In this document: piece by piece, positions 5,972 to 22,517 of the stretch | Layout: every line of letters begins with the position of its first letter | Numbering within the stretch: the first letter of the stretch is position 1 | Origin: Bacteroidales bacterium | Lineage (GTDB): Bacteria > Bacteroidota > Bacteroidia > Bacteroidales > UBA10428 | Assembly (NCBI GenBank): GCA_016929525.1 | Contig: JAFGIP010000092.1 | Coordinates: 1-64,000, forward strand | DNA: 64,000 bases | Direction of reading: 5' to 3' | Position numbers and translations under genes: made by a program | Notes under the pieces: model-generated | Told to the model about the DNA's origin: nothing | Seen by the model: the letters and a program-made list of their open reading frames with translations, nothing else | Databases searched by the model: none

Positions 5972-7859
5972 CTATGGTCTGAATATCATTTTCTTACAAA
6001 CAGAAAATTCCTGAGTTAACACTCTGCTAATGTATATACTGCCCGGTACTTTATTACCATTCTGGTCACAAACGCTCCAGATAATGCTGTGCTCACCTCT
6101 TGATTGTGCTTCATTAACCAAAATATTTACTAGCCTTCCGTTGATGTCCACAACTTCAACCCTGACTTTTGTTTCTTCAGGAATATAATATCAGATAGTT
6201 GTTATATTGTTGACAGGGTTAGGAGAATTCTTATAAAATTTTGCATCAATCCTTTCTCCTTGTATTAATGGATAGGCAGTCAGATCATCAACAATTGCAA
6301 ACGGTTCAGCATCTACTGCGGTTATTCCTTTAAGGGTAGAATTTGAAGCGGCTATACGAATAGTATACTGGCCCAAAGGCGAATCCATTAAATCAGTATG
6401 TACAGTGTTATTGGTATATGTAAAATCGTCGGCATATTCATCACCAAAACTACCATCATCGTGTAACATCATGAATGGAAAATTGGTAGTTAGCGCGCGA
6501 AATTGGTACTGATTATCTTTGAATGCATTAAAAGCCACATGGTGAATAGAATCCTCAAATGTAGTTATATAAGCTTCAAAGGTAGATGTCGTTGACAAAT
6601 CGTACATTACCTGTGGTGGATCCAGAACCACATTTGTAATTTCAGGTTCAGCACCAATTCCATTTAATCCAAGGTCTGCAATCCATATCTGTGACGGAAT
6701 ACTTGGTGCCACAAAACAAAACCTACTTCCATCTGCAGTAATCGATGGATGCATCGATTCAGACATTCTGAATCCTCCTGTTGGAATGCCCACCTCATCA
6801 ACGCTGACGATATCCACACTGTATTGGTAAACAGTATTTACCAGTGTTAGAGGAGGAGTATAAGGTACGCCTCCTCCACCTAGAATTACTGCATTGGCTC
6901 CGCTATATGCCATTTGCACACGATGTGATGTTGAAAACTGATCGTATCCGCCAAGTAATAAAATTGGTAATTCTGTCACAAGAGAATATGCATATATATT
7001 GATACCGTCGTACTCCAGCTCAGGAATATATTCTCTTCTGAAAACCACGAATTCATCTCCGTCTTCATATTTTGAAAAAGGTTGAATACCTGTTGCATAG
7101 TCGCAAAGTAATTCGAATTCGCCATCAACCCAAACGATAGCGTCACCCTTATTTAACTCTCCACCTGCAATCTGAAATGTGCGTGTTCCAAAGATAACAC
7201 GCGACCCATCCCAGTTTATATCGAAACCATTGGCAAATGCAGTGTTTTCATTATACTCTGAACCGTCACTGTCAAAAACTTCAGAAGAAACATCGATATA
7301 ATTAAAGAGTTGTGTTATTATCAGAGCCATCGGCACCAACACGCCACAGACCAGCTGCATAAGGATCATCATACGATACCAGAAAGTACACCTGCCCAAC
7401 TGTTGAAGTTATCCTTGGTGTAAGGTTTATGGTTGGTTCAATATCGGCAAATTCCGGATTTGGATTGGGTAGTAATGTAGCTATTTCTTCAAGTTCACTC
7501 CCGTCTGAATTAGCGATAAAAATTTCTCCATATCCGTCGCACCAAATAATTTTATCTCCATTATTGCTAATGTCAACTGTAGGTCCGGTTCCTGTTCTTT
7601 CAAAATCGTATACCTGAGTTAAGTCAGAATCCGTGGAACTTACTGTGAACACTTTTACTGCAGGGCCGCTTGTACCAAACACAATTGTAGAGCCATCAGC
7701 ACTGATTTTCATACTGCAGATATAATACTCTGTTTCAAAATTGCTGATTTGCTTGTAGTTTATTGATCTTATAACTGCTGTTTGTGAAAAAGTCAGACTG
7801 ATACAAGAAATCAACAAGATAAGAGTCAAATGACATGAATGGATTTTGGCTGTTTTCAT
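5972..7859 (-). pseudogene. Broken TolB/PD40-like beta-propeller protein with T9SS tail
   Basis: Reading leftwards from the ATG at 7859, a signal peptide (ILLISCISLTFSQ) is followed by repeats of the form ISADGSTIVFG and ISNNGDKIIW, typical of TolB/PD40 beta-propeller blades. The frame closes at about 7302, but the same protein carries on in another frame (TQLFNYIDVSSEVF, then INWDGSRVIFG). One extra T in a short T run near 7305-7315 would explain the shift. The second frame stops at a TGA at 6191-6193, inside the sorting domain (NSPNPVNNITTI-stop). The downstream codons still read as a T9SS tail (VEVVDINGRLV...) to a TAG at 5972-5974. Two separate lesions in one reading frame argue for a pseudogene. 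Sequencing error is possible for either one. Confidence 0.75.
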
Positions 7860-8096
7860 AACACTATATTTTTGTCTTTTTATTCAGGTGATGATCTGGT
7901 TCAATTTAAATAATATTTAATTTGAATGAAAATTTCAGCCTGCATTACTTCAGAAAATGAATTTCTTCCGAAAGGAATTGCGGAAAGTACGAGAGTTATT
8001 ATCTGTATGAGTTAAAAGAAAAGTATAAATATATAAACTCGTTACTTGGTTTCACACTCACTCTATCTATGTGGTCTTTGACCACCGAAGCCCAAA

Positions 8097-8133
8097 AATA
8101 AAAAATCCCTCCTTTGCATAAAACTCCGGAGGG
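8097..8133 (-). terminator. Intrinsic terminator behind the displaced tRNA 3' end
   Basis: On the minus strand CCCTCC (8133-8128) pairs with GGAGGG (8112-8107), followed by a T-rich run (the A-rich plus strand at 8097-8105). It lies directly downstream of the tRNA-Met remnant at 8140-8182. That is where the terminator of the tRNA gene would have been before the island entered. Confidence 0.6.
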
Positions 8134-8139
8134 CGAAGG

Positions 8140-8182
8140 TGGTCCCACTTGGGCTCGAACCAAGGACCCCCTGATTATGAGT
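8140..8182 (-). repeat. Left attachment-site repeat: 3' part of tRNA-Met(CAT)
   Basis: These 43 bases match 27239-27281, the 3' part of the intact tRNA-Met, with only two differences. The last 19 bases (GGACCCCCTGATTATGAGT) are identical, and the match stops right there, in the anticodon stem. The two differences pair with each other in the T-stem (T-A here, A-T in the intact tRNA), so both copies would fold. This is the classical footprint of tyrosine-recombinase integration at a tRNA 3' half. The integrase starts 139 bases further in. Confidence 0.9.
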
Positions 8183-8321
8183 AATGTGATTGGTGTTTTG
8201 ATATCTTTTGTTATTTTTGTATATTGTTTGTTTATCAAGCATTTGATGGAAATTAGCTTTTAATATTTTTGCAAAATTTTCCACATTTTCTAGTGATTTG
8301 TATGTAAAATGTATGTAGATA

Positions 8322-9554
8322 ATGATTCAGAAAGTTAATACAGCTATAATTTTAGAAACCCGATATAAAAAGAAAAATAAAAAGCATCCGGTTAAACTTC
8401 GAGTAACATATCGGAGAGAACAGAAGTATTACAGCACCATGTTTGACCTAACAGCAGAAGATTTTGAAAAGGTGCAATCACCAAAAGCAAGAGGCGAATA
8501 CAAACAAATACAATTAAAATTACAAGCTGTCGAAGCTAAAGCACTTCAGATAATATCTGACATGCCTGTATTTACTTTTAATGAGTTTGAAAAGTATATA
8601 CAACTACAGTTCAGCACCGAAGGATTAGTCAAAGAAGTTTATGACCAGTATATAAAAGAACTTGAAACAGAGGGTCGATACAGCTATTCACAAACATTTA
8701 TATGCAGTAGGAACTCAATATTCGAGTTTTGTAAGAATGAAGCTCTTCACTTTATCGATATTAATGAAGGATTCTTGAAATCCTATGAGAAATGGATGCT
8801 GGATAATGAAAAGTCCATTTCAACAGTTGGTATTTACTTAAGGCCATTAAGAGCTATATTCAATTATGCTCAAAAGATAAAATTAATAAGTGAGAAGATT
8901 TATCCGTTTGGGAAAAATGGTTATCAAATACCAACAAGCAGGAATATTAAGAAAGCATTGACAAAATCAGATTTAGTAAAACTTTTAAATTACAGCACAA
9001 TTCCTTATTCACCAGAAGATAAAGCAAAAGATTACTGGATATTTTCCTACCTGTGCAATGGCATTAATATTAAGGATATTGCCTTACTTAAATACAGAAA
9101 CATAAAAAATGAATCCATAATATTTATACGAGCCAAAACAGCCAGTTCCAGAAAAAAGGATTTAACACCGATTGAAGCCGTTTTAACTGATGAGGTACGT
9201 TTTATCATAGACAAATGGGGAAACAAACCTGTATCACCTGATAACTTTATTTTTCCCATACTGAAAAAAGGTTTAACTCAAAAGCAAACTCATGATCGTA
9301 TACACCAGGCAATAAAGACCATCAATAAGTATATGAAAAAGATAGGTTCAAAACTTGGTATACCTATTGCACTTACTACCTATGTGGCAAGACATACCTA
9401 TTCAACAATTATGGTACAGGCCGGAATGTCAGTAAAATTTATCTCGGAACAATTAGGGCACAGTTCTACTAAGACTACTGACAATTATATTGGCAGTTTC
9501 GATTTTGATGAAAAAAAGAAGGCTGCAATTAATCTAACAAGATTTGAAGATTGA
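8322..9554 (+). CDS. int: Tyrosine recombinase (site-specific integrase) of the island
   Basis: This 410-residue protein has the Bacteroidetes integrase layout. An N-terminal arm-binding domain (about 10-80, with TRYKKKNKKHPVKLRVTYRR) comes first, then a SAM-like core-binding domain (about 105-200), then the catalytic domain (about 215-405). The catalytic residues visible are ARH at 356-358, a GH pair in QLGHSS, and the nucleophile Tyr389 in DNYIG. The usual first catalytic Arg position reads YLCNGINIKDIALLKY, with no Arg; loss of Arg I is known in CTnDOT-type integrases. The gene lies just inside the left att repeat and is the obvious enzyme for integration into the tRNA-Met gene. ATG start. 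Confidence 0.9.
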   Translation: MIQKVNTAIILETRYKKKNKKHPVKLRVTYRREQKYYSTMFDLTAEDFEKVQSPKARGEYKQIQLKLQAVEAKALQIISDMPVFTFNEFEKYIQLQFSTEGLVKEVYDQYIKELETEGRYSYSQTFICSRNSIFEFCKNEALHFIDINEGFLKSYEKWMLDNEKSISTVGIYLRPLRAIFNYAQKIKLISEKIYPFGKNGYQIPTSRNIKKALTKSDLVKLLNYSTIPYSPEDKAKDYWIFSYLCNGINIKDIALLKYRNIKNESIIFIRAKTASSRKKDLTPIEAVLTDEVRFIIDKWGNKPVSPDNFIFPILKKGLTQKQTHDRIHQAIKTINKYMKKIGSKLGIPIALTTYVARHTYSTIMVQAGMSVKFISEQLGHSSTKTTDNYIGSFDFDEKKKAAINLTRFED

Positions 9555-9637
9555 CTTAAAAAATTAGTACCTTGTATACAAAATTTTGATTATATAATCA
9601 ACGTTTTAATCATAAAAATGTTAAATATTTTGCAATA

Positions 9638-9677
9638 GACTTCTATTTATGGTATATTTATACCATAAATAGAAGTC
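9638..9677. promoter_or_regulatory. Perfect 19-base palindrome abutting the start codon of the RHH gene
   Basis: Bases 9638-9656 are the exact reverse complement of 9659-9677, with only TT between them. The core reads TATGGTATATTTATACCATA. The right arm ends at the base before the ATG of the ribbon-helix-helix gene at 9678. Such proteins commonly bind palindromic operators next to their own gene, so this is a likely autoregulatory operator. As RNA it would form a 19-bp hairpin touching the AUG and leave no free leader for a ribosome-binding site. The symmetry is seen directly; its role is inferred. Confidence 0.75.
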
Positions 9678-9878
9678 ATGTCAAAGCCAAGCTACAATAC
9701 CAAACCAGAAAAAGTAACCATGACAACAAATCCTCGAGTCATTAGCTTTCTTGAAAAGCTTATTGAAACAGGAATGTTTGGTAGAACGAAATCAGAAGTA
9801 GCAGAACAATTGATAAGACGATCAATGGAAGATTTCTTAATGTCAGACAAAATTGAAAAACTAACTAAAGAGCTATGA
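9678..9878 (+). CDS. Small ribbon-helix-helix-like DNA-binding protein
   Basis: This 66-residue protein begins with a short strand (EKVTMTTNPRVISFLEKLI) followed by two helices (GRTKSEVAEQLIRRSMEDFL). That is the strand-helix-helix pattern of MetJ/Arc and antitoxin-type regulators. It is the first gene of a four-gene cassette, and its stop codon overlaps the next start as ATGA. A perfect palindrome sits immediately upstream, so it probably represses its own operon. It could instead be the antitoxin-like partner of one of the downstream proteins. The RHH call rests on pattern only. Confidence 0.65.
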   Translation: MSKPSYNTKPEKVTMTTNPRVISFLEKLIETGMFGRTKSEVAEQLIRRSMEDFLMSDKIEKLTKEL

Positions 9879-10297
9879 CATATCAATTAAATGAAAAAAC
9901 ACAAAGGCTTGATATAAGCTTATTAGCTATCGAAGCTGCTGAAGAACTTGTCCGCTCCCAAAGAAATATTTCAACTGATTTTAAATCAGTTAAAATATTA
10001 GCTTCTATTCTTCAGGAATCATTTTCTGACAGTTTAAAAGAATCCGGCGCATATAGATTGGATCATGCCTCAGTAGTATCTGATGCTATGTCAAACTCTT
10101 TGGATGCTGCTTTTGGCCAAAAAACCATTGCAGAGATAGCAAACGAAGCAATAAAGATTGCTAACCAACTTAATCCTGATAATATTAGTTCAAAGGACGA
10201 AGAAATTAAGAAATTGGTAGCTTTTTGCGTAGCGTTATCAGATAGTGCAGCCCTTTACAGAGAAGAAGTGGAAGATTTAAAGAAACATTTTGCCTAG
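9875..10297 (+). CDS. Hypothetical helical protein, second gene of the cassette
   Basis: I do not recognise this 140-residue protein. It is predicted mostly helical, with no signal peptide, membrane segment or Cys/His cluster. The middle contains LDHASVVSDAMSNSLDAAFG and the C-terminal third is acidic (SSKDEEIKKLV, YREEVEDLKKHF). It overlaps the RHH gene by four bases and the peptidase-like gene by eight, so its product is presumably made in step with both. It may be an adaptor or inhibitor. Nothing in the sequence shows catalysis. Confidence 0.7.
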   Translation: MTYQLNEKTQRLDISLLAIEAAEELVRSQRNISTDFKSVKILASILQESFSDSLKESGAYRLDHASVVSDAMSNSLDAAFGQKTIAEIANEAIKIANQLNPDNISSKDEEIKKLVAFCVALSDSAALYREEVEDLKKHFA

Positions 10298-11465
10298 TTT
10301 AGATTATAAGCAGTTTACGATTTCAAGGATCGAAGCTTTTTTGAAGCAGATCCAGCATCTAAAGGAATTAGATTTTCCTTATTTGGATTCTAGTGAAGCT
10401 CTCGATAAAATTTCAAAACATATAACAGATCAACATGACGCCGTTTCAAAATCTGTTTTAATAGATGATGCTTTAAAATCAAGATGTTCTCGAGCTTCAG
10501 ATCAGTTATTTATTTTCCAGAGATACTTAGGATATATTTCAAAATCCTCCGAACCGATAAACAGTTTCGAAATTTATTTCTCATTCAGGAGGTTAGCAGC
10601 AAGGATTTTAGGTGAACATACCAGATTGATTATAAGCTCCGAATGGGAGTATTATAGTCCTGTCAACTTTTCAATCCCGACTGAATTAAGTAATTTTGTT
10701 TTTATTGGATTACCCGTAGCTGAAGCAGAAAATCCCTTAATAGTGCCTCTCAGTGGCCATGAACTTGGTCATTCCATATGGGATAATACAAGCTTCGATA
10801 ATAAATATCGAGCGCTCCTTCAAACAGAAATCTTGACAAAATATTCAAGTAGCTATGATAACACCGAGATCGGCTACATGACAGAAGTATCTCTAATTAA
10901 ATGTATTGAGTATTTCTGCGATTTTATTGGAATTGGTCTATTCGGAGAATCATACCTTTATTCATTTTCCTATTTGTTAGCACCAAAGATTAGTAAATCC
11001 CTTAATCAAAGTCATCCAAATGCCAAGAACAGAGCAATAGCAATGCTTAAAGCTGCCAAGCATTTTAACAATGACTTGCCCACTAATTTTGAAAATCTCT
11101 TTAAAACTCAACTAAATCCATCTATTAACAGAAGAGATAAATTGCTTGAAATATCTGAAAATATAGCGTCAAGTCAAGTTGACGCACTGATTCAAGATGT
11201 AAGCATTTTATTGAAAAATAAAGGAGTTATTTATGCAAAACCATCTAATTATTCTGAACTAAAATCCCAAATACTTTCTGGTGTTCCAGTAAGTTCGGCA
11301 AATTCACTAGCAGATATTACAAATGTTGCATGGGATGTATACTTTGAGGAAAATAAGTGGGATGACATAAAAATTTCTGAAAATAAAAAAATTGCTTTCC
11401 TAAATGAACTTACTATTAAATCATATGAAATTCTCGAAATAAACCAACGACTCCTTGAAAAATGA
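10290..11465 (+). CDS. HExxH zinc metallopeptidase-like protein, third gene of the cassette
   Basis: This 391-residue cytoplasmic protein starts with TTG (10290), eight bases inside the previous gene. No other in-frame start is nearby. The key segment is PLSGHELGHSIWDN, with the zinc-peptidase HELGH at 157-161. About 45 residues later, CIEYFCDFIGIGLFG offers Glu207 or Asp211 as a third zinc ligand, as in gluzincin-like folds. A further conserved-looking block is SHPNAKNRAIAMLKAAKHF (241-259). The N-terminal 130 residues are helical and may sense a partner. It has no signal peptide or transmembrane segment, so it would act inside the cell. It is coupled to a dCTP-deaminase-like gene by an ATGA overlap. 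I do not recognise the family, and the substrate is unknown. Confidence 0.7.
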   Translation: MPSLDYKQFTISRIEAFLKQIQHLKELDFPYLDSSEALDKISKHITDQHDAVSKSVLIDDALKSRCSRASDQLFIFQRYLGYISKSSEPINSFEIYFSFRRLAARILGEHTRLIISSEWEYYSPVNFSIPTELSNFVFIGLPVAEAENPLIVPLSGHELGHSIWDNTSFDNKYRALLQTEILTKYSSSYDNTEIGYMTEVSLIKCIEYFCDFIGIGLFGESYLYSFSYLLAPKISKSLNQSHPNAKNRAIAMLKAAKHFNNDLPTNFENLFKTQLNPSINRRDKLLEISENIASSQVDALIQDVSILLKNKGVIYAKPSNYSELKSQILSGVPVSSANSLADITNVAWDVYFEENKWDDIKISENKKIAFLNELTIKSYEILEINQRLLEK

Positions 11466-12073
11466 TCCTAAAGTCAGATATTGTTTATGAACGGCTTCAA
11501 GCAGAAGATGAAACAAAGCTTGTTATACAACCAATTGATATTGAAGAACTAAAAAACAGCGGTTCCTCATCTGTTGATATGCGGCTTGGAACTAGATTCT
11601 TATCCACCAAACATAGTCGATGTACAATCCTTGATATCGAAGCAGAAGATAAAGATATCAACAAGGAAAAAAGATTAATGGAATCTCATTATGTCCCTTT
11701 TGGGAAAAGTTTCATTCTTCATCCAAGAGATTTTGTTTTAGGGGTTACACTTGAATGGATTAAGCTACCTTATGACTTATCTGGTTATGTTCAAGGTAGA
11801 TCTTCGTGGGGTCGTAGAGGATTAGTAATTGCTACTGCTGTAGGTGTTCATAGCGGTTTTAGTGGTTGTTTAACTCTTGAAATAACTAACTTAGGGGAAG
11901 TTCCTATTGCAATATATCCAGGAATGACAATATGCCAATTATTTCTACATAAAGTTCACACTTCAATACAAACTTCCGATTCGACCACTTTTTTTGGTAA
12001 ATCGAAACCTGTTCTTGGACGTATCTTATTAGATAAAACAGCCCGGAAACTTGCCGGATTTAAAACAACCTAA
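11462..12073 (+). CDS. dCTP deaminase / dUTPase-fold protein, fourth gene of the cassette
   Basis: The 203 residues follow the Dcd trimer fold. Key motifs are QGRSSWGRRGL (Ser114, Ser115, Arg118, matching the RSSLARLGL nucleotide-binding motif of Dcd), GFSGCLTLEITNLG (Glu140, matching the catalytic Glu of Dcd) and YPGMTICQL near the C-terminus. Dcd enzymes convert dCTP to dUTP, some on to dUMP. Stand-alone dCTP deaminases are known anti-phage nucleotide-depletion effectors. One oddity: the Asp that precedes PGW in housekeeping Dcd appears as His130 (GVHSGFSG), which may change sugar or base recognition. The ATG overlaps the metallopeptidase stop as ATGA. Deaminase activity is inferred. Confidence 0.8.
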   Translation: MILKSDIVYERLQAEDETKLVIQPIDIEELKNSGSSSVDMRLGTRFLSTKHSRCTILDIEAEDKDINKEKRLMESHYVPFGKSFILHPRDFVLGVTLEWIKLPYDLSGYVQGRSSWGRRGLVIATAVGVHSGFSGCLTLEITNLGEVPIAIYPGMTICQLFLHKVHTSIQTSDSTTFFGKSKPVLGRILLDKTARKLAGFKTT

Positions 12074-12083
12074 ATTGTCGATT

Positions 12084-12767
12084 TTACTCAAACATCTTTT
12101 CAAGCAAACCTACTAGCATCAATTCATTTTGTGGAACACCATTCATTTCAAATGCAGATATTTCACAATCGAAAATGCTTGTTACTTTGAATTGGAGTAA
12201 AGCATCTACAGGCTTACCATCGAATGTCATTCCTCCTTTCATATTGACATAAAAGCCTTCTATTTCAACATCAAAAAAGGATTCCCATTTCGGTTCACTA
12301 AAAAATCCATTTACAGCCTCTGTAACTGTTTTGTCAGGGTATCGTTTTGGACTGTATACCTGTGCAACAAGTACACCAAGCTCTCCCTTGTATTTGTTTT
12401 TCACCATCTTCATCACAGCAGGACTTCCATCAGAATGATTACCTTTTATCTCTAAAGTACTATCTGGAAGATATGTTGCTACTCCTGTAATGGTATCACC
12501 ATCGATAATTAACTCTACTTTTGCTGATGAGGTTTTCCAAGACCCTTTACTAAAACCATACCCATCACCTCCATACAAAATATTACTTGCCCTAAAGTCA
12601 AGGAACAATCCATCATTCTTACTTACTAATTCTACATCACCTGAGGTAATTGATTGAACATTCCATATGCCGACCAAGTCAATACTTTGGGTGCTGGATG
12701 AGCAGGCAGTAATACAACAAAAGAGGGCAAAAAACTTAATAGACTGTTTTATTGTTTTCATAATCAT
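12084..12767 (-). CDS. Putative lipoprotein, island cargo
   Basis: This 227-residue protein has a lipoprotein signal (IKFFALFCCITACSSS; probable lipid Cys in ITAC). The mature part begins DLVGIWNVQSI and continues with strand-rich motifs (SKGSWKTSSAKVELI, LEIKGNHSDG), resembling a lipocalin-like barrel. The C-terminal half (FDVEIEGFYVNMKGGMTFDGKP) is unassigned. It converges on the dCTP-deaminase-like gene with a 10-base gap, so it is not part of that cassette. Its upstream region is a long nested inverted repeat. Two ATG starts are possible (12767 or 12761). The function is unknown. Confidence 0.65.
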   Translation of the reverse strand: MIMKTIKQSIKFFALFCCITACSSSTQSIDLVGIWNVQSITSGDVELVSKNDGLFLDFRASNILYGGDGYGFSKGSWKTSSAKVELIIDGDTITGVATYLPDSTLEIKGNHSDGSPAVMKMVKNKYKGELGVLVAQVYSPKRYPDKTVTEAVNGFFSEPKWESFFDVEIEGFYVNMKGGMTFDGKPVDALLQFKVTSIFDCEISAFEMNGVPQNELMLVGLLEKMFE

Positions 12768-12805
12768 ATATTTAATTAATAAAAAAAGGCGTAGCCTCGG
12801 TCATT

Positions 12806-12914
12806 TGCTCCGAAGGCACGCCAATGCCTACTACGAGTAATGCCAAGGTACGCCCATTCGGCGTCCCTGAACATTTTTCCCTCGTAGTATAAATTTTTGG
12901 CGTTTTTCGGAGCA
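12806..12914. repeat. Nested inverted-repeat structure (possible structured RNA or recombination site)
   Basis: Four stems nest around one axis: 12806-12814 with 12906-12914 (9 bp), 12819-12824 with 12897-12902 (6 bp), 12829-12837 with 12881-12889 (9 bp), and an inner ACGCC/GGCGT hairpin (12850-12854 with 12860-12864). Short asymmetric loops separate the stems. The segment is far richer in G+C than its surroundings. It lies in the 232-base gap between the lipoprotein start and the end of the serine recombinase gene. The folded-strand look recalls integron attC sites or a structured RNA, but no known consensus was matched. Confidence 0.6.
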
Positions 12915-12999
12915 GGAAAAAGTCGGTAACTATATTTTCACAATTTCTTTATTCTATATTTTCAAATTTTAGGGTTTATTACTCAAATTTAACTACTAT

Positions 13000-13620
13000 T
13001 TATATTCTGTCAATATAATTCTTGTAACTATTATAACTCATCTTACTATCTCCGGGCATTTGGTTGTTAATGATTTTCTCAATTGCCCTTACAGACAAAC
13101 CCATTTTCCGATATTCTAGGATTTGGTCTTTGTATGGGTCAAGCTTAAAACCATCTTTGTTTTTACTTCCTTTGGGGCGACCTAGCTTTTTGCCGTTTGC
13201 TTTTGCAACCGCAAGACCTTGTTTTGTTCTCATAGAAATGAAGTCTCTCTCAGCTTCCGCAAAATAACTATATACAGCCAACAAGAGTTTTCCATGACTT
13301 GCAGTAGTAGAAAGTTCAGGCTGCCTTACAAATTCAATTTTTACACCTTTTTCAGTAAGAGCCTCAATGATATTTAAAACTTCCAACATGTTTCTACCTA
13401 ATCGGCTAAGTTCAGCAACCCATAATAAATCCCCCTTGCTAACTTTATTCAGAAGTTCTTCAATTCTTCTTTCCTTTAATGACTTCTTCGAAGATATTTC
13501 AATTTGCAGCATGTCATCTATAAGTAGTTTTCGCTGCTGTGAATACTCATTTAGCAGGTGTCTTTGTTTTTCTAAATCCTGCTTATCTGTGCTTACTCTT
13601 ATATATCCAAAAACACTCAT
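13000..13620 (-). CDS. Serine recombinase (resolvase/invertase family)
   Basis: The 206-residue protein starts at the ATG at 13620 (MSVFGYIRVST); nine extra codons upstream to 13647 are unlikely. The catalytic Ser10 lies in GYIRVSTDKQ. Further family motifs are ELSRLGRNMLEVLNIIEAL and GKLLLAVYSYFAEAERDFI. The C-terminus ends in GKKLGRPKGSKNKD followed by a helix-turn-helix. This is the size and layout of Tn3-type resolvases and Hin/Gin invertases. A nested inverted repeat lies just downstream, and the intergenic A+T-rich stretch upstream (13621-13756) could hold its recombination site. It may resolve or invert part of the island. Confidence 0.88.
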   Translation of the reverse strand: MSVFGYIRVSTDKQDLEKQRHLLNEYSQQRKLLIDDMLQIEISSKKSLKERRIEELLNKVSKGDLLWVAELSRLGRNMLEVLNIIEALTEKGVKIEFVRQPELSTTASHGKLLLAVYSYFAEAERDFISMRTKQGLAVAKANGKKLGRPKGSKNKDGFKLDPYKDQILEYRKMGLSVRAIEKIINNQMPGDSKMSYNSYKNYIDRI

Positions 13621-13756
13621 TTTAAATAAAAAGGTTTTTTTACACATAAATTTAGTTATTTATACGCAAATAAACCGATAATTGTTTTGAAATATATTCG
13701 AAATTTTAAGGTCCGTTATTTTTGCAATAAATAATAAACCTTGAAGGATTGAGTAA

Positions 13757-14785
13757 TCAAGAGATTTTGCTCATATTCAGATTTTCCGACTTCCAATCTG
13801 ATATACATTTCTTTTCCTCATCAAATGAAATCCCAATTAAGTGAATGACTTTTTTATGACGTAAGTATGGCTCATAATATTTTTTCTCATATATCTGGTC
13901 AATAGCTTCTTTAGCGTTTGTTACCTTACATTCAATTATATAAATATATTTTTTCAATTCAATTATTGTATCCGACCTGCCCCGGGAAGTACTTATTTCG
14001 GAGTTGGTTCTTCGATTAATCATTACAACTATTATATGCATAATAGCATGATAAAATTTTTCATGTTCTCCAAATATTTGATACGGAATAGTTGAAATTA
14101 TGGACTTTAATCCATTGATAAACTCACTGACGTTATTTTTATTAAGTGCCTCTAATATATCATCGGTATAATTATCTGGTAATTTTTCGATTTCCCTTTT
14201 CTGCTCTTTCTTCCTATTTATATGATCAATAATCTGCTTGGTAAACTTATGAGGTCTATTAAACACAGTCAATAAATTTCTATCAAGTTGAAATTCCAGT
14301 CTCTTTTCACCTTCTAAGATTATTATGGTGTTTGAGTTTACCGTTTTAAACTGGATACTAAGTTTCTCATCGATAGTCAACTTTTCAAGGTTACGAGAGA
14401 TGAAATTTCCTTGAACCACATTTAATTGAAATATGTGAAATTGAAATTCAAAACCGACAACTGAAAAAATAATAATATTAAGAACAATGTACTTGGGGTT
14501 GTGATGCTTATTTAGTTCAGAAACTCTGGCAATCTGCTCTACTTCAGGATTAATGAATTCTTCATCATCCAATTTTATATAGTTAATCCCATAGCCCCAG
14601 AAATCACCATTAAAAATTGGAAAGTCAATGTTTAATCTATTTAACTCATTCTCAAAGTTTATTCCACTTCTAATAACCGAATCCAACATACCTCCCTTTC
14701 CACCGAGAACTCTACTATATCTGAATATCCTTTTTCTCAACAAGTTGAAAAAATCTTCAGACAATATATAATCTCTATCAATCAT
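13757..14785 (-). CDS. PD-(D/E)XK nuclease-domain protein downstream of the restriction genes
   Basis: In this 342-residue protein the C-terminal part (about 205-335) matches the nuclease domain usually found behind DUF1703-type AAA proteins: GRSDTIIELKKYIYIIECKV with Asp272, Glu285 and Lys287, then Gln298. The N-terminal 200 residues are not the usual AAA ATPase, since no Walker motifs are seen. They begin MIDRDYILSEDFFNLLRKR and I do not recognise them. It is the last gene of a minus-strand series, 13 bases after the HARE-PD-(D/E)XK gene and 0.75 kb after hsdR, so it is probably co-transcribed with them. Likely an accessory DNA-cutting or DNA-sensing factor. Confidence 0.7.
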   Translation of the reverse strand: MIDRDYILSEDFFNLLRKRIFRYSRVLGGKGGMLDSVIRSGINFENELNRLNIDFPIFNGDFWGYGINYIKLDDEEFINPEVEQIARVSELNKHHNPKYIVLNIIIFSVVGFEFQFHIFQLNVVQGNFISRNLEKLTIDEKLSIQFKTVNSNTIIILEGEKRLEFQLDRNLLTVFNRPHKFTKQIIDHINRKKEQKREIEKLPDNYTDDILEALNKNNVSEFINGLKSIISTIPYQIFGEHEKFYHAIMHIIVVMINRRTNSEISTSRGRSDTIIELKKYIYIIECKVTNAKEAIDQIYEKKYYEPYLRHKKVIHLIGISFDEEKKCISDWKSENLNMSKIS

Positions 14786-14798
14786 ATAATTTAATTAG

Positions 14799-15530
14799 TT
14801 ATTTTATAACCTCCCAATTATTCCAATAATAGACAATTGGATTGGAGAGAGTGCCTATAAAAATTTCATCTTTCCGGACTTTTAATGTAACTGAAAACCG
14901 TTCATGGTTTTTGACTTCCTTGATTATATTTGAAAAAATAAGCTCATCTATTTTATGTGCCGGTAAAATCAATACAGATTTTGAAATATCTTCATGAATC
15001 ATTACAAATACATAATAGACATTACCAGCATACTCTCTTTCAAGTGCAACCTTGCGCACATTAAATACAAATTGATTATTTATTTCATTTGCTGTTTTAA
15101 CCTGCAATGAAAACAGTTTATTATTTTTTGTGGCGATTAAATCCATACCAACATCAACACTCATGATACTTGCATTAAACCCACGAAGTAGAAGTTCACT
15201 ACAGACATAAAATTCACCCGATTTTGCTACATAATTGCTTCCCCCGGAATCATCTCCTTTAACAGTAGAAGATTTCATCAGCTTATGTTTGGGTTGGTCT
15301 ATAGGTTTAGGATTAATACCAAAAATAGCAGGAGCTATTCTAATAAAAGTTGATGCCTCACCTAAAGAAGCAATTTCAGTAGTAATTTGCGCATTCATCG
15401 AAGCATCCGGCGTTTTACCTTCACTTTCCAGAATGCCTTTTTCCAAAGCTCTTTTTGTGATTTCCTTATAATGTAAAGGTTCACCAGCCTCTTTTAGGAT
15501 TTCGATTGCAGCGTTTTTGAATTTATTCAT
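14799..15530 (-). CDS. HARE-HTH plus PD-(D/E)XK endonuclease-like protein
   Basis: Residues 1-75 (FKNAAIEILKEAGEPLHYKE ... IAPAIFGINP) are a HARE-HTH winged-helix domain, a module often tied to restriction systems and DNA-modification sensing. Residues about 100-235 form a PD-(D/E)XK-like domain: GEFYVCSELLLRGF, then VDVGMDLIA (Asp126 or Asp130) and LFSLQVKT (Gln143, Lys145). The usual Glu is replaced by Gln, a known variant. It begins nine bases after hsdR, with which it is surely co-transcribed. It may restrict or recognise modified DNA alongside the type I enzyme. Confidence 0.75.
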   Translation of the reverse strand: MNKFKNAAIEILKEAGEPLHYKEITKRALEKGILESEGKTPDASMNAQITTEIASLGEASTFIRIAPAIFGINPKPIDQPKHKLMKSSTVKGDDSGGSNYVAKSGEFYVCSELLLRGFNASIMSVDVGMDLIATKNNKLFSLQVKTANEINNQFVFNVRKVALEREYAGNVYYVFVMIHEDISKSVLILPAHKIDELIFSNIIKEVKNHERFSVTLKVRKDEIFIGTLSNPIVYYWNNWEVIK

Positions 15531-15539
15531 GATTGCACC

Positions 15540-18500
15540 TTATTTCTCAACATTAATATTCTTATATATCGACTTTGCCAGATACTCAAAGATTATGGCA
15601 TTCGCCAGATTCTTATTGTTCAATAGCTTGTTGGTTGTATCATCGTTCAAGTCCATTCTGTCAATCAGCTTCTGATAAAAAAGGTCTTCAAGTTTTCCTT
15701 TTTTAAAGTTTTCAAAAGTATTGGTCAGGGCTTGTTTCACTATTGTTTCATCTGACACCAAATCTATACCCACTTGATCGAAAAAAAGTCTGTCCGCTTG
15801 TGTGAAATCAGTACCGAACCGCTCATTAATATTTTCTATTATGTCCGATAACTCACCTTTATCCTCTTTGTCTTTTCGCATTCCTGCTTCGGTAGCAGGT
15901 TGTAAGCCATATTCTGCCTCCGGGTCAAGAACGATATTACCTTCCATTGTTTTTTGCAGCCGATAGTATTCCAAGCTCACCTCATCCTTTCCCAATTTAA
16001 ACCTATCTGATAAAAGTTTTCTTGGCAGCTTATTTAGCAGCAGTTTACAGTAGGCATAATACTTTTCAAGCTCTATGTCGGCAAAGGGTATAATCTGACT
16101 TAAAAACGCATAAGAACGCACAAATTGCGTGAGTAAATGCTTAAAGTCCTCTTGTTCTTCTTCAGTATCCATTCCATTATACCTATCCACTGCCGGGTCG
16201 ATATAAGCATTTAACATTGCATGGATTTTGTTTTTATGAATATCAATCTTCTTGAAGTACTCTTTGCAGAAGTTATCTACCTCTGTTTGCCAGATTATCT
16301 GCGCTTGTTCCAGTTTTGTCTTTAAATCATACAGTCTGTTCGGATCTGATACTTCCGTAACTGAGGTCAGTTGATAATAAGGCTGAAATGAATTGCGTAT
16401 TTCTTCTTCCTCATTGGCAAAGTCAAGTACAAACGTGTTTTCTTTTCCGGCACAGGTTCTGTTCAACCTACTTAATGTTTGTACTGCCTGAACACCTGAC
16501 AATTTTTTATCTACATACATGGTATGCAGCAAAGGCTGGTCAAATCCGGTCTGGTATTTATCTGCGACCAGTAACAACTGGTATTCATTGGTATTGAATT
16601 TTTCTGGCAACTCCCGTTCTTTGATACCGTTCAACTGTTCTTCTGTCCACTCGCTATCCGGTACTTCGGGGTCAGATACCTTACCAGAGAAAGCTACCAG
16701 TGTCTTTATATTATAATTGTTTGCCTCAATGTATTTCTTGAACTCAAAGTAATACCTGACAGCATGCAATCTGGAACCAGTTACTACCATAGCCTTTGCC
16801 TTTCCTCCAATTTTCCCTGATACTACTTGTTTGAAATGCTCCAACATTACTTCGGTTTTTTGAGAAAGGTTGTAAGGATGCAAGGACAAGAATCTTGCAA
16901 TTGCCCGGCTTGCTTTTTTCTTCTGTACTGTGCGATCTTCGTCTTGCTGTGTGAGTTTATAAAAGGTTTTATAAGTCATGTAGTTTTGCAGTACATCCAA
17001 TATGAAGTTTTCTTCAATAGCTTGCTTCATTGAATACAGATGAAAGGGGCGGGGCTTTCCATCTGCTCCCGTTTCACCGAATACCTCTAATGTTTTCGCT
17101 TTTGGTGTTGCTGTATAACCAAAGAAACTCAAATTTGGCTGCTTTCCTCTGGCTTGCATCGATTGCCGGATTAAATCTTCCGAAGTCAAATCTTCATCAT
17201 TTTCTTTATCAACTGCACTGCCCAATATTTCTTTCATTTGTTTGGATGCTTCACCGCCCTGCGAACTATGAGCTTCATCAACAATTACGGCATACTTATT
17301 TCTGGCAATCTTCTTTAAGGTATCTTTCTTATCAATCCCTTCTTCCTGCGAAAGCCTGTCGATGCTTTCGAGAATGAAAGGGAACTTTTGCAAGGTTGTA
17401 ATAATAATGCTGTTTCCATTGATTAGGGCATCTCTCAGCTGATGTGTATTGACATCTATTTTATGTACTACCCCCTGTTTGTGTTCAAACTGATAAATGG
17501 TATCCTGTAATTGTTTATCCAGAATCCGTCTGTCAGTTATAACAACCACCGAATGAAAAATCTTTTTATCCTCCTTATTGTGCAGACTAAACAGACGATA
17601 AGCCAACCATGCAATGGAATTGGATTTGCCACTACCGGCTGAATGCTGTATCAGGTAATTATGACCTACTTCATTTTCTTTGGCATGCGTTGTAAGCCTG
17701 CGAACAACATCCAACTGGTGAAACCGGGGGAATATCATATTTTCTTTCACATACTTCTTCCCATCCACAATTATCTCCTCTCTGTCGAGATGGATAAACC
17801 TGCCAATAATATCTACCCAGCTATCCTTCTGCCAGACATATTCCCATAAGTAGGATGTTTTATGCCCTTTCGGGTTGGGCGGATTTCCTGCTCCGCCATT
17901 ATAACCAAGATTGAAAGGTAAAAAGAAAGTTTCTTTGCCTTCCAGCTTGGTTGCCAGATACACCTCATCGGTATCAACAGCAAAATGCACCAATGCCCCC
18001 CGTTTAAACTGAAATAAGGTTTCGCGCGGGTCTCTGTCCTCGATAAACTGGCGTTTGGCATTACTGGTATTCTGCCGGGTAAACTGGTTTTTTAACTCTA
18101 CCGTAGCCACTGGAATACCGTTCAGGAATAGAGCAATATCAACTGAATTTTCATTTTTTGTGCTGTAATATACCTGCCGGGTTACTGATAGGATGTTTTG
18201 ATTATAGAGCTTCTCAGTTTCAGGATTTAAAGAGGTTTCCGGCCGGAAGTAAGCAAGGTTAAAATGAATTCCATTATCTGTAAAACCATTACGTAGCACA
18301 TCTATTGCACCCCGGTTTGTCATTTCTTTATCTAAGCGGAACAGGATTTTAGTTTCAATCTCGCTGCGGTGAACCGAGTATAACTTCTTCCATTCTTCGG
18401 GTTGGCTATTTTGAAGAAAACTAAACAAATGCTGTGTATCTACTGCGTATGTTTTGTTAAAGTTTTCTGATATACCTTTAATATAACCGGCACTATCCAA

Positions 18501-18554
18501 TAAGTACTGTTCTATGGCTTCTTCAAATGCGGCTTCTGAATGGATTTTAGTCAT
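15540..18554 (-). CDS. hsdR: Type I restriction enzyme, R (motor/nuclease) subunit
   Basis: The 1004-residue protein has the nuclease motif near the N-terminus: VDIALFLNGIPVATVELKN with Asp139, Glu153 and Lys155. The SF2 translocase follows: Walker A HSAGSGKS at 304-311, DEAH at 426-429, and GYTATPK at 480-485. HsdR uses ATP to translocate DNA through the HsdM/HsdS complex and cuts at a distance from unmodified sites. The length is normal for the family and no break is seen. It is separated from the upstream genes by 198 bases, so it may have its own promoter, and it is followed closely by two more nuclease genes. Confidence 0.95.
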   Translation of the reverse strand: MTKIHSEAAFEEAIEQYLLDSAGYIKGISENFNKTYAVDTQHLFSFLQNSQPEEWKKLYSVHRSEIETKILFRLDKEMTNRGAIDVLRNGFTDNGIHFNLAYFRPETSLNPETEKLYNQNILSVTRQVYYSTKNENSVDIALFLNGIPVATVELKNQFTRQNTSNAKRQFIEDRDPRETLFQFKRGALVHFAVDTDEVYLATKLEGKETFFLPFNLGYNGGAGNPPNPKGHKTSYLWEYVWQKDSWVDIIGRFIHLDREEIIVDGKKYVKENMIFPRFHQLDVVRRLTTHAKENEVGHNYLIQHSAGSGKSNSIAWLAYRLFSLHNKEDKKIFHSVVVITDRRILDKQLQDTIYQFEHKQGVVHKIDVNTHQLRDALINGNSIIITTLQKFPFILESIDRLSQEEGIDKKDTLKKIARNKYAVIVDEAHSSQGGEASKQMKEILGSAVDKENDEDLTSEDLIRQSMQARGKQPNLSFFGYTATPKAKTLEVFGETGADGKPRPFHLYSMKQAIEENFILDVLQNYMTYKTFYKLTQQDEDRTVQKKKASRAIARFLSLHPYNLSQKTEVMLEHFKQVVSGKIGGKAKAMVVTGSRLHAVRYYFEFKKYIEANNYNIKTLVAFSGKVSDPEVPDSEWTEEQLNGIKERELPEKFNTNEYQLLLVADKYQTGFDQPLLHTMYVDKKLSGVQAVQTLSRLNRTCAGKENTFVLDFANEEEEIRNSFQPYYQLTSVTEVSDPNRLYDLKTKLEQAQIIWQTEVDNFCKEYFKKIDIHKNKIHAMLNAYIDPAVDRYNGMDTEEEQEDFKHLLTQFVRSYAFLSQIIPFADIELEKYYAYCKLLLNKLPRKLLSDRFKLGKDEVSLEYYRLQKTMEGNIVLDPEAEYGLQPATEAGMRKDKEDKGELSDIIENINERFGTDFTQADRLFFDQVGIDLVSDETIVKQALTNTFENFKKGKLEDLFYQKLIDRMDLNDDTTNKLLNNKNLANAIIFEYLAKSIYKNINVEK

Positions 18555-18713
18555 ACTATTAAATTTTCAACAAGTGATTTGACCCTATTTGGCTTATTTT
18601 CATCACATTAAATTGTTCATATGTGTAAATAAATGTTAATAATTTGTTTATATCATAACAATGTGATACTTTTGGCTCACTCATCTTTCCTTAATTAGGA
18701 AGAAGGAGTTTCG

Positions 18714-18745
18714 GAGGACGATGTATCTTGATATACACCGTCCTC
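18714..18745. other. Stem-loop in the 198-base gap before hsdR
   Basis: GAGGACG (18714-18720) pairs with CGTCCTC (18739-18745). TGTAT/ATACA inside extends the stem after one A/C mismatch. It lies just behind the stop of the upstream minus-strand gene (18753) and before hsdR. On the minus strand no T run follows, so it is not a clear terminator in that direction; on the plus strand it is followed by GCGTTTTT. It may slow or protect the upstream mRNA. The remaining gap (18555-18713) is A+T-rich and shows nothing definite. Confidence 0.45.
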
Positions 18746-18752
18746 TGCGTTT

Positions 18753-19277
18753 TTAGAGTATCTCTCCCAGTTTATTTTTAAGTTTATTCTTTATCTGTGT
18801 TTCTCCATGTTTTTTGTATAAATAAAAAGCTGTCAGTAAATAGTAATCTTTCTTCGTTCTCTGCGGTTCCAAAACAATGACATATTTTTCAGCTAAGTCA
18901 AAAATGTAGGTACGGAAGACAGTTTTCCCTTTAACACGTTCCTCAGTACTGAAAATCTCCATTTTATCCTTTTTATTCTCCTCAATGTGATACTTAACCC
19001 AATGCAAGCGTTGTGAGCGGTGCATATCAAACACCCTGCGTTTTACTTTCCTGCCACTTTCATCTTCTTCCTCAACTTCCTCGCGTGTTAAATGATTAAA
19101 TAATAGTTGCATTGCAGGTTCTTCACCTTTTATCGGGTAAATCTTTTTTTTTCTGAAATTTAGGTTTGGGTCATTTTCAATATCTCGCTCAAAAATACTC
19201 TTTAGAGATTTTGTCCGTTCGACAACCGACAAATAAGCCAATTCCAGTAATTCGGGATATTTCTTAAGTATATTCAT
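18753..19277 (-). CDS. Small protein with possible PBECR/RelE-like toxin fold, partner of DUF3800
   Basis: Starting at the ATG at 19277, the product has 174 residues. The C-terminal third reads VFRTYIFDLAEKYVIVLEPQ and then KKDYYLLTAFYLYKKHGE. This resembles the strand pattern of barnase/EndoU/RelE-type (PBECR) nuclease domains found in toxins and polyvalent proteins. The centre (EEEDESGRKVKRRVFDMHRSQRLHWVKYHI) holds charged residues and His. It follows the DUF3800 gene by about a dozen bases. The pair sits between hsdS and hsdR. The toxin-fold assignment is a pattern guess. Confidence 0.55.
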   Translation of the reverse strand: MNILKKYPELLELAYLSVVERTKSLKSIFERDIENDPNLNFRKKKIYPIKGEEPAMQLLFNHLTREEVEEEDESGRKVKRRVFDMHRSQRLHWVKYHIEENKKDKMEIFSTEERVKGKTVFRTYIFDLAEKYVIVLEPQRTKKDYYLLTAFYLYKKHGETQIKNKLKNKLGEIL

Positions 19278-19288
19278 TGCCAAACAGA

Positions 19289-19963
19289 CTATTTAAGTTC
19301 AATAAAAAAGAGGTTAAACTTGCTTGCGGTTTTGGGCGTGGTAAGCTCCAAAGGTCGTTTAGTGTGGTGCTTAATTTTATCCACTATTTTAATCTTGGCA
19401 ATCATTTTAAAATTACGCCTTAAATGGTAATTTAATGCTCCCATTAACACATCCGATAATTGTAATAAAACACTTTCGTGTGAACGAATGAATTGCAGGT
19501 TACGGATATTGCTATAATCTATATTGAGTATCTCCCGTAGCTTATTTATTTTTCGATAACTGCATGTATCCTTTATATCGAGATAGATGTTATAAGTATA
19601 CTCCATATCAATTTTATGGTGAAGCAACTGGTAATACATGCGATAATAAAAATCGTTATGTGTATAACCAAATCGGCTGTTGTCGATTTTTGTTTTGTCA
19701 ACAATAACTGCCCGAAAGTTTAAATCTGTTGCAAAGAAATAATCAACCAAGTCGGCATAAAAGGGATAGTTCGATTCGGAAAGCTTCGACCACTTAATTT
19801 CACCTTTGAAATTATGCTTTTCCCGAAGCATCATAATATGACCGGAATGAATCTTTACCTGATTCCATGCTGAACTAACATAGGCTATTATCATGTAAGG
19901 CATTCCATCGTTTTCAAGATGTGTGCTTTCATCGCAATAGATATTAAATGTTTTCTGTTGCAT
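19289..19963 (-). CDS. DUF3800 protein (RNase H-like fold) inside the restriction locus
   Basis: The 224-residue protein has the DUF3800 signature: FNIYCDESTH at the N-terminus (Asp11, Glu12), YLDIKDT in the middle (Asp129), and LLQLSDVLMGALNYH near 168-180 (Asp171). These acidic residues fit a two-metal RNase H-like site. DUF3800 genes are frequent in defence and mobile regions, and their role is not settled. It starts 11 bases after hsdS and is followed within about a dozen bases by the small toxin-fold candidate, so the two probably form a pair carried within the type I operon. Confidence 0.8.
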   Translation of the reverse strand: MQQKTFNIYCDESTHLENDGMPYMIIAYVSSAWNQVKIHSGHIMMLREKHNFKGEIKWSKLSESNYPFYADLVDYFFATDLNFRAVIVDKTKIDNSRFGYTHNDFYYRMYYQLLHHKIDMEYTYNIYLDIKDTCSYRKINKLREILNIDYSNIRNLQFIRSHESVLLQLSDVLMGALNYHLRRNFKMIAKIKIVDKIKHHTKRPLELTTPKTASKFNLFFIELK

Positions 19964-19974
19964 TTTATAATGGT

Positions 19975-21300
19975 TTAATTCCGTACATCAATTTTACCGG
20001 TTACTGCTTCAAATATTAAGGCCTGGCGATATTCTTTTAATAATTTGATTTCACTATCAATCTTATCTTTTATTTCTCTATTCAGTTTCAATTCCACATT
20101 GATATGTTGACATATTATCTTCTGCTCAGTAATAGGTGGTATAAGCAATTTAAAATTCACAATATCTGCTTGGAAAAGATGCGGTACACCCATTCCTGTT
20201 TTAAGAATAGTTATTACATTTTGTGTATAATCAGATTCCAAGAAAAACCTAATATACTCGGGGGAAAGATGCTTCTTATCATAAATTCTCAGAACTGCAA
20301 TTGATGAATTTACAGTTGAAGGTATTGGAAGGCTTTTTACTAAATTTACTATCCCCAACGTTGAACCATCTTTAGCCAATAAAATATCGCCTATCTCTAA
20401 CATGATTTCAGGTGATTCAAAATATCGTTCCTCTGTGATATAATTAATACTCTCAAAATCTATTGCATCAGTTTTAATGTTTGGAGTTGCAATAAAACCA
20501 TAGCCTTCCTCGACATATTCATCAGCTTTCAATCCTTTCCATCCAATTCTTGCCTTAACAGAGATATGGTACTTTAGAAGCGTTTTCTCCCAATGCTCCG
20601 GTATATCCCCCAACCATTCAATACCTGATGGCTTTAACTTCACATTCGGGTCAATGCCCTTTGTTACGGCATTGTTAATAATGGCTTTGCGTTCTTCTTC
20701 CAACAACTCAATCAGGCGTTCTTTTTTGGCAATGGTTTCATCGATTTGGGCGGTTTTTTGGTCGAGGTAGCTTGCTATAAAAGTTTGTTCTGCAATTGTT
20801 GGTAATGGTGCTTTTATGCTTCCTATCATCTCTAAATTTAAACCATCTCTCTTATCCCCTCCACCAAGGTTTCTTATGTTTTGATAGTTTGCTGTAAGCC
20901 AATAAAGCAAATATCTAGTATAATTAACATCATTAGGAACAATCACTCCCAATGATTGATTACAAGTACATTTAAACATTACTTGTCCTGCCATACCTTT
21001 TGTTTTACCTTGTCCAGCTAATGCGATGATAATTGATTTTTCTGGTATCCACTTAGCACTTGAACTTTCATAACCAAGCACAGAAATGTGTTCAGAGGGT
21101 TCAGTAATATTAAATTGATTAACTGTTCCAGAGTTTAACCATGGTATAACTCCATCATTCCAATACTCCTCTTTGTCTTTTGAAGGTGTTCCACCAGCAT
21201 AAATATTAGAAATCCATCTAAGACTTGCAGAAAACCATTCTTTTGGAATAATATCAATCCATTCAATCCCTGAATCCTTGTATTTTGGGTATTTCTTCAT
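19975..21300 (-). CDS. hsdS: Type I restriction-modification specificity subunit
   Basis: The 441-residue protein has two target-recognition domains, each opened by the same phrase: DSGIEWIDIIPKEW at about 10-25 and PSGIEWLGDIPEHW at about 225-245. Each is closed by a long helix (about 175-215 and 395-435) with KTAQIDETIAKKERLIELLE and a related C-terminal spacer. HsdS sets the two half-sites recognised by the whole enzyme. It overlaps the preceding nuclease gene by one base and is followed by DUF3800. No nearby second hsdS or inverted-repeat shuffling site was seen. Confidence 0.93.
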   Translation of the reverse strand: MKKYPKYKDSGIEWIDIIPKEWFSASLRWISNIYAGGTPSKDKEEYWNDGVIPWLNSGTVNQFNITEPSEHISVLGYESSSAKWIPEKSIIIALAGQGKTKGMAGQVMFKCTCNQSLGVIVPNDVNYTRYLLYWLTANYQNIRNLGGGDKRDGLNLEMIGSIKAPLPTIAEQTFIASYLDQKTAQIDETIAKKERLIELLEEERKAIINNAVTKGIDPNVKLKPSGIEWLGDIPEHWEKTLLKYHISVKARIGWKGLKADEYVEEGYGFIATPNIKTDAIDFESINYITEERYFESPEIMLEIGDILLAKDGSTLGIVNLVKSLPIPSTVNSSIAVLRIYDKKHLSPEYIRFFLESDYTQNVITILKTGMGVPHLFQADIVNFKLLIPPITEQKIICQHINVELKLNREIKDKIDSEIKLLKEYRQALIFEAVTGKIDVRN

Positions 21301-22517
21301 TAATTTTTAATAATCCTTTTTAGTTTATCCGTAGTTAATTGCACTAAGTTGTTTTTATCATTAAATAATGTTGCTTCTAAGATTTCTTCAAGTTTTTCAC
21401 TTAATGAATCTTTGTCCGTGAAATGATTTGATAAATCAATATCCAATATAAAAATATGATAAAAAGTCCCCGTATCTTTTCCTCTCTCACCAAATTGCAC
21501 ATGTTGTGGTAAACTAAGATTAGTAAGTTTTGACTTTAATTTGCCTCCATATTCTACGAAATCGGAATGTAATTCATATGCAGAAAAAAAATTATTATAA
21601 CATAAAAGATCATCTATATCAATATAAATTCTAAATTCTTCTGGATGTTTTAATTTCCCATTATCAAAAAAGGATTTAACTGGGTATAAATGCTTTGACT
21701 TTGAAGAATCCTTTGTATTAGTTGGCTCAAAACCAAATTTTTTAAATGTGCCAAAAACCATTTTGGATATATATCTTCGCAATTCCATTTCTAATTCCGA
21801 AATAGCTTTTATCTTTTTAAAATTGATTTGGTATTCTTTCAGCTTTGTTTCCATATTTGGGTTTGATTTATCTTCACTATATAAATAGTTTATATTCGAA
21901 ATATATTCTTTTAGAAAGAGTAAATGTCTATCATCACTATTCTTAAAATATTGATAGATATTTAAAGACACCTGGCTTAATAATTCATTATGCGTGATAT
22001 GCACATATAAAATCCCTTCCGACTTTAGCTTTTGAAGATAACTGTTCTCATCATCGCTTAATGGCTTTAATGTAAGAACAATGCCAATCTTCTTACTTTT
22101 TACGTTAACGCAATTCCAATAAGTTTTTAAATCGTTATACAAATTAGCATGGATTTTATTTTCAATAAGAATTGCCCATTCATAACTATATTTATTATTT
22201 CCCTTATTATTCGAAACAATAAGGATATCAATGAACTCAAATTCTCGAAAGACTGTAAAATCTGGAGTTAATTCATCCAGAAATTGTGGAGCTAACCTTC
22301 CTAATTTTAAATGAATTAATTCAATTAGGCTATCAAAAAAAAGGCTTTCGAATTTATGGTCTTCCTTATTATCAAAATAAAATGCTAAAAAATTACTATT
22401 TACCTGTTCCCAGTGAGGAAAACCAGCAATTTCAAAAATATTTCTTCTGTCCTTTAATTCTTCGGGCAGATTAGCTATAAAATCATCTAGCCAATTAAAG
22501 TCAAGTTTACTAATCAT
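21300..22517 (-). CDS. PD-(D/E)XK nuclease-like protein between hsdM and hsdS
   Basis: This 405-residue protein has the nuclease core at about 85-135: FEFIDILIVSNNK (Asp97), then YEWAILIENKIHANLYNDL with Glu119 and Lys121. The N-terminus (NIFEIAGFPHWEQVNSNFLA) resembles PD-(D/E)XK proteins of phage-defence loci. The C-terminal 200 residues are unassigned. It overlaps hsdM by eight bases and hsdS by one base, so translation is coupled inside the restriction operon. Classical type I loci have no gene here, which suggests an added effector or an anti-restriction countermeasure. Confidence 0.75.
   Translation of the reverse strand: MISKLDFNWLDDFIANLPEELKDRRNIFEIAGFPHWEQVNSNFLAFYFDNKEDHKFESLFFDSLIELIHLKLGRLAPQFLDELTPDFTVFREFEFIDILIVSNNKGNNKYSYEWAILIENKIHANLYNDLKTYWNCVNVKSKKIGIVLTLKPLSDDENSYLQKLKSEGILYVHITHNELLSQVSLNIYQYFKNSDDRHLLFLKEYISNINYLYSEDKSNPNMETKLKEYQINFKKIKAISELEMELRRYISKMVFGTFKKFGFEPTNTKDSSKSKHLYPVKSFFDNGKLKHPEEFRIYIDIDDLLCYNNFFSAYELHSDFVEYGGKLKSKLTNLSLPQHVQFGERGKDTGTFYHIFILDIDLSNHFTDKDSLSEKLEEILEATLFNDKNNLVQLTTDKLKRIIKN

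Follow-up and report, generated by a model that had tools for sequence, protein, structure and literature searches.

A 40-base perfect palindrome immediately before the first start codon of a four-gene operon in a Bacteroidales mobile island, a probable operator for autorepression

A perfect palindrome of 40 bases heads a four-gene operon on a mobile island of a Bacteroidales bacterium, and it is probably (a chance of roughly 60%) the DNA operator through which the first product of the operon, a presumed ribbon-helix-helix (RHH) protein, represses its own expression; the fold of this protein, the position of the promoter, the binding, and the repression are what we infer. The palindrome lies in a window of 64,000 nucleotides (assembly GCA_016929525.1, contig JAFGIP010000092.1, positions 1 to 64,000 of the forward strand). 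The initial annotation of this DNA had described a 40-base palindrome with 19-base arms and a TT centre abutting the ATG at 9678, and comparison of the arms confirms every element: the arms (9638-9656 and 9659-9677, 19 nt each) are 100% complementary with TT between them, and the 3′ edge is the base directly before the start codon. The dyad symmetry is well above chance expectation and adjoins the presumed regulator gene (Table 1). A palindromic operator is an ordinary kind of control, though this one is unusually long and perfect.

Table 1. Features of the island and of the operon headed by the palindrome (window coordinates).
Feature	Coordinates	Strand	Remarks
Left attachment repeat, copy of the 3′ part of tRNA-Met	8139-8182	-	42/44 bases identical to 27238-27281
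Tyrosine integrase of the island	8322-9554	+	Pfam Phage_integrase 3.5e-15, Phage_int_SAM_5 1.2e-15, Arm-DNA-bind_5 5.3e-06
Candidate promoter	9629-9660	+	TTTG 9629-9632, 20 bases, TATATTTA 9653-9660, TGG before
Perfect palindrome, presumed operator	9638-9677	.	19-base arms around TT
Presumed RHH repressor, 66 aa	9678-9878	+	RHH assignment by reading
P140, 140 aa, companion of the metallopeptidase	9875-10297	+	
M48-like zinc metallopeptidase, 391 aa, TTG start	10290-11465	+	HELGH 157-161, E207xxxD211
dCTP deaminase (dUTPase-fold Dcd)	11462-12073	+	TIGR02274 8.4e-35; Pfam DCD 4.6e-33
Intact tRNA-Met (CAT), other end of the island	27238-27312	-	

The palindrome is exceptional by every count that was made. 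When the window was simulated 20 times with a first-order Markov model, perfect arms reached 12 at most (loop up to 10). Its own genome was sampled over 334,843 bases (the window and 20 further stretches), and there the palindrome exceeds every other perfect inverted repeat in length, the runner-up having 13-base arms (loop up to 10 for both). Upstream stretches of 100 nt from 133 sampled genes, all ATG-started frames of at least 150 aa, hold arms of 10 at most. The palindrome is single-copy in its own assembly (122 contigs, 97.7% complete), and a search of this assembly for the half-site with up to 3 mismatches returned both arms and one 3-mismatch match, versus 7 matches for the reversed control pattern. 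With as many as 3 mismatches allowed, the inner 30 bases occur in none of the 294 other genomes among the 295 searched in the order, and they have no match in IMG/VR. The single occurrence in the assembly fits a local autoregulator.

The palindrome and the integrase gene sit on a mobile island of about 19.1 kb (8139-27281) integrated in tRNA-Met. Its attachment repeats contain two stretches of exact identity, 19 and 13 bases long, found by script, the total of 42/44 having been counted by eye; by reading, the two mismatches, at 8149 (T for A) and 8163 (A for T), stand opposite each other in the T arm of the tRNA. The island carries a type I restriction set (HsdM 22510-24234, HsdS 19975-21300, and HsdR-like 15540-18554), together with two PD-(D/E)XK proteins, a DUF3800 protein, a serine recombinase of the Resolvase family (13000-13647, 3.3 kb from the palindrome), and an HTH_17 protein (26493-26858). 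The sites of serine recombinases look like a dyad around a 2-bp centre. The palindrome has this form and the Resolvase-family gene is close by, which raises the very improbable alternative that it is a recombination site, either a crossover site of this enzyme or an accessory site of the integrase. However, the att repeats of the island lie at 8139-8182 and 27238-27281, the 97.7% complete assembly holds no second copy, and no other half-site on the island is better than 14/19. The palindrome was also considered as the attachment site of the island itself and rejected on the first two of these grounds.

Four reading frames follow the palindrome, with successive overlaps of 4, 8, and 4 bases, and they code in order for the 66-aa presumed RHH protein, for P140, for an M48-like metallopeptidase, and for a dCTP deaminase. 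The earlier description of a regulatory-looking palindrome heading an operon thus stands, the presumed RHH gene being first and overlapping the next by 4 bases. An in-frame stop within the palindrome excludes an upstream start for this gene. We take its product to be an RHH protein from its strand-helix-turn-helix look, the pattern of such proteins. In Pfam the protein gives DUF2274 alone, below the cut-off (E = 0.061); NCBIfam and PHROGs give no match, and the one match among PDB sequences (E = 0.62) is taken as chance. A single-sequence AlphaFold2 model (mean pLDDT 70) has helices at 19-30, 38-54, and 57-65 and no strands, and a structure search with this model gave no significant match.

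Relatives of the 66-aa protein are lacking wherever they were sought. None beyond the window's own was found in 395 genomes of Bacteroidota or in 247 genomes of the order, none in phages (to E = 10) or IMG/VR, and none in plasmids at E = 0.01. Four plasmid records match at E = 2-6, and in the three of these that were examined a deaminase is not annotated within 3 kb. Among 198 genomes of the class, 41 besides its own have matches at E up to 1, the best of which (E = 0.006, inside a 250-aa frame) was judged to be chance. Because dyads can be used by any dimeric regulator and the RHH identity of the 66-aa protein is presumed, the palindrome might be the operator of another regulator, encoded by the host or by the island (e.g., the HTH_17 protein). 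This we regard as decidedly unlikely, since one copy in the assembly speaks against a host-wide regulator and the adjacency to the first gene favours the product of that gene.

The position of the promoter can be approached through the −7 box of Bacteroidota, which this genome uses: TAHHTTTG occurs 8-50 nt before the ATG in 18 of the 133 genes (4.5 expected; maximum of 12 in 100 simulations), and the 24 such sites near an ATG imply leaders of 1-53 nt, with a median of about 20. Fixed consensus counts alone were used, because a de novo fit of the box drifted to an uninformative C/G motif. Full TAHHTTTG is absent between 9555 and 9677. The nearest candidate box, the weak match TATATTTA, which sits on the palindrome centre, is without the final G, and boxes of the kind "TAHHTTT then not G" are at background (29/133 genes; 23.5 expected). 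Mild enrichment is seen for the pair TTG-N17-23-TAnnTTT (27 vs 15.3; at most 23 in 50 simulations). A sigma-70-type scan picks out the same place (TTGCAA at 9630-9635, 17 bases, then TATATT with TGn), and sigma-70-type promoter-like matches at 9400-9900 number 3, as compared with 2.8 in shuffles.

In the accessible parts of two reports (PMC6847099 and PMC9723704), the −7 box lies at −12 to −5 relative to the start, a spacing that puts the candidate start at 9665 and gives a leader of 13 nt. Excerpts of the same reports indicate that 87% of transcripts in F. johnsoniae have leaders over 10 nt (PMC6847099), and that in F. psychrophilum the median leader is 24, with 5.5% leaderless (PMC9723704). 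The predicted leader may thus be short and not leaderless. It had been proposed that a start inside the palindrome would make the mRNA almost leaderless; this does not hold for a start at about 9665, which leaves 13 nt, a length within the 1-53 nt of this genome. The related proposal that there is no normal 5′ leader applies only to transcription that begins outside the palindrome.

A transcript of the whole palindrome folds into a hairpin of 18 pairs (−23.4 kcal/mol, z = −8.6) whose stability is matched by 0 of 200 shuffles. For this hairpin to form, the transcript must contain the whole palindrome, and one starting at 9667 has no unusual structure (z = −0.8). Occlusion of the start codon by such a hairpin would require transcription from 9638 or further upstream, and the sole candidate found for this is a match to an alternative-sigma-like box. 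This competing box, TATTTTGC at 9626-9633, fits TAnnTTGY, likely an alternative-sigma box of F. psychrophilum in the accessible part of PMC9723704, and would place the RNA start at 9638. With such a start, the palindrome could be an RNA switch, in which the 40-nt hairpin of the leader touches the AUG and blocks translation of the RHH gene and of the genes coupled to it until it is opened or bypassed. Besides the stability of the hairpin, the association of structure around the start codon with lower translation in F. johnsoniae (PMC6847099, as far as its accessible text goes) agrees with this alternative. It is nonetheless unlikely: TAnnTTGY is not enriched at 8-50 nt upstream of genes in this genome (5/133, against an expectation of 6.9), and the palindrome is single-copy and so offers no covariation to examine. 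All 19 of 19 pairs are Watson-Crick, which an RNA does not need, though this is a weak argument.

The same hairpin, together with the start of the palindrome 84 bases past the end of the stop codon of the integrase gene, would suit a terminator of the integrase gene. This is the least credible of the alternatives, because there is no T-run after the stem, the stem is A+T-rich and flush with a start codon, and a scan of both strands at 9400-9900 gave 0 terminator-like sites.

Autorepression through a DNA operator, the preferred reading, would proceed as follows. The 66-aa first product, as a dimer or a pair of dimers of the presumed RHH fold, would bind the symmetrical 40 bp and cover the core promoter predicted on the palindrome centre, and the protein would keep its own four-gene operon repressed for as long as the island stays quiescent. 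The operon would be released once the repressor is lost or inactivated. As a secondary effect, RNA reading through from the integrase gene would fold into the 18-pair hairpin abutting the AUG, and the operon would be poorly translated from such read-through. The hairpin is thus likely to be a brake on integrase read-through and not the main switch. The placing of a palindrome on a promoter is a known arrangement: according to a review (PMC4803016), antitoxins usually act on palindromic sites that overlap the promoter, and the site of Kis is a perfect palindrome lying over the −10 box.

Homologs of the cassette downstream of the RHH gene are rare and scattered. Peptidase relatives were found in 10 Rhizobium plasmid records (the same 10 in two plasmid searches), and a scan of a genome collection gave five loci, from three Rhizobium genomes, a planctomycete, and a Nitrobacter. 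Phages gave none. In IMG/VR, a one-protein query found none and two further searches found one contig, the same both times, which carries peptidase and deaminase and breaks off ahead of P140; an alignment of P140 found no relative in IMG/VR. The full trio of P140, peptidase, and deaminase was seen in two Rhizobium plasmid records examined and in the planctomycete, and the Nitrobacter contig ends after P140 and peptidase. Identities among relatives are 27-35% for the peptidase, 22-29% for P140, and 46-54% for the deaminase. Within Bacteroidota the peptidase is rare: besides its own genome, there is one distant relative (L004, 25% identity) among 395 genomes of the phylum, one weak relative (L063) in 169 genomes of the class, and none in 295 genomes of the order. 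These two distant relatives were left out of the cassette set. In L004 (3.7 kb, frames of at least 45 aa, by reading), the peptidase relative occupies 665-2253 with a 149-aa ORF in front, and no deaminase was seen.

The region 5′ of P140 was compared in seven loci, of which L005, L006, L009, L010, and L012 have identical 250-nt upstreams, so that there are three distinct cases. Their longest perfect arms are 5, 5, and 6 (loop up to 20), and simulations produce arms at least this long in 99%, 96.5%, and 61% of cases. A tblastn search with the 66-aa protein on L005, L008, and L011 gave a best E of 0.16. Palindrome and 66-aa gene are thus both absent in 3/3 distinct homologous cassettes, which would tie the palindrome to the RHH gene and not to the conserved cassette, a co-occurrence based on one RHH-bearing locus. 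The initial annotation had offered the lack of any palindrome in homologous cassettes as grounds for giving up its proposal, and literally this is what is seen (0/3 distinct upstreams have one). Because these cassettes also lack the RHH gene, the result refutes the palindrome as part of the cassette and leaves standing the palindrome as RHH operator, and the proposed linkage of presumed RHH gene and palindrome agrees with their joint absence. The further suggestion of tight off-state control suited to a toxic cassette is not upheld: the genes overlap, but no protein 3′ of the 66-aa gene matched a known toxin family, and other genomes carry the cassette with no palindrome in front of it.

By reading, other small gene pairs precede the cassette in these genomes. 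In Rhizobium (L005, 4271-5114), a 60-aa ORF and a Fic gene form a toxin-antitoxin-like pair, and in Nitrobacter (L011, 2515-2960), a 54-aa ORF and an XRE-like 94-aa ORF do so; both are unrelated neighbours. The Rhizobium plasmid record L005 has, at 7290-13215, dcd followed by genes for an S8 peptidase, a trypsin-like peptidase, and an AAA ATPase.

Two of the three proteins of the trio are without a family at threshold: in Pfam, NCBIfam, PADLOC, and PHROGs, neither P140 nor the metallopeptidase of the window has a match at E = 0.001 or above cut-off. All family matches of P140 are sub-threshold, and among its four relatives a single one matches a Pfam model at E = 0.004, a model that looks unrelated. 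The peptidase has a single sub-threshold Pfam match (E = 0.027); its H157, E158, H161, E207, and D211 are invariant in 5/5 aligned sequences. Its five-sequence structural model (mean pLDDT 73) found nothing at E = 0.001 by Foldseek, and VIA-align gave a weak match to ZMPSTE24 (Z = 6.7, rmsd 7.5, 190 aligned). Because the VIA-align list is full of helical bundles with equal or higher Z, no peptidase family is claimed from structure. The deaminase scores 120.1 bits (TIGR02274 cut-off, 92.8), matches the PDB Dcd chains 2qxx and 2j4h in a profile search, and is the only match of TIGR02274 in the assembly. It has no PADLOC match at E = 0.1 and hence does not belong to the deaminases that this collection lists under phage defence. 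A literature search covering few subscription papers returned no paper joining dCTP deaminase, metalloprotease, and anti-phage defense.

The conserved trio, rather than the palindrome, may be the real find. This rare three-gene set (9875-12073) recurs in Bacteroidota, Planctomycetota, and Alphaproteobacteria, and here it stands beside type I restriction genes. One tentative reading is that P140, the M48-like metallopeptidase, and the dCTP deaminase are an unrecognised, horizontally moving conflict module, in which a protease freed or activated by infection would free a deaminase that removes dCTP. The gating of this speculative module would differ by lineage. Here it would fall to an RHH repressor acting at the 40-bp operator, and the supposed modules of Rhizobium and Nitrobacter lie beside unrelated toxin-antitoxin-like genes. 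The value of the palindrome is that of a pointer, since it draws attention to a regulator added to this uncommon trio. If the trio is a defence module, the operator shows a route by which it is silenced and gives a handle on its function.

Among known systems, the fourth gene resembles the Dcd of dNTP metabolism in passing the TIGR02274 cut-off and matching solved Dcd chains, but it differs in sharing an island operon with a metallopeptidase. The peptidase has HExxH and ExxxD, which we take to be the motif of M48-type metallopeptidases (ZMPSTE24/HtpX), and a weak structural match to ZMPSTE24; in contrast to that group, it has no match in Pfam or NCBIfam, and the ZMPSTE24 match stands among unrelated helical rows. 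As to the operator, the closest comparison is with RHH toxin-antitoxin operons of the RelB/MazE6 type, as far as the accessible parts of their descriptions go. The present operon differs from these in having no recognised toxin and an RHH fold that is presumed, and its 40-bp perfect dyad is flush with the start codon, whereas the MazE6 operator is 18 bp. It resembles them in that a palindrome heads the operon, the small first gene codes for the presumed repressor, and the genes overlap.
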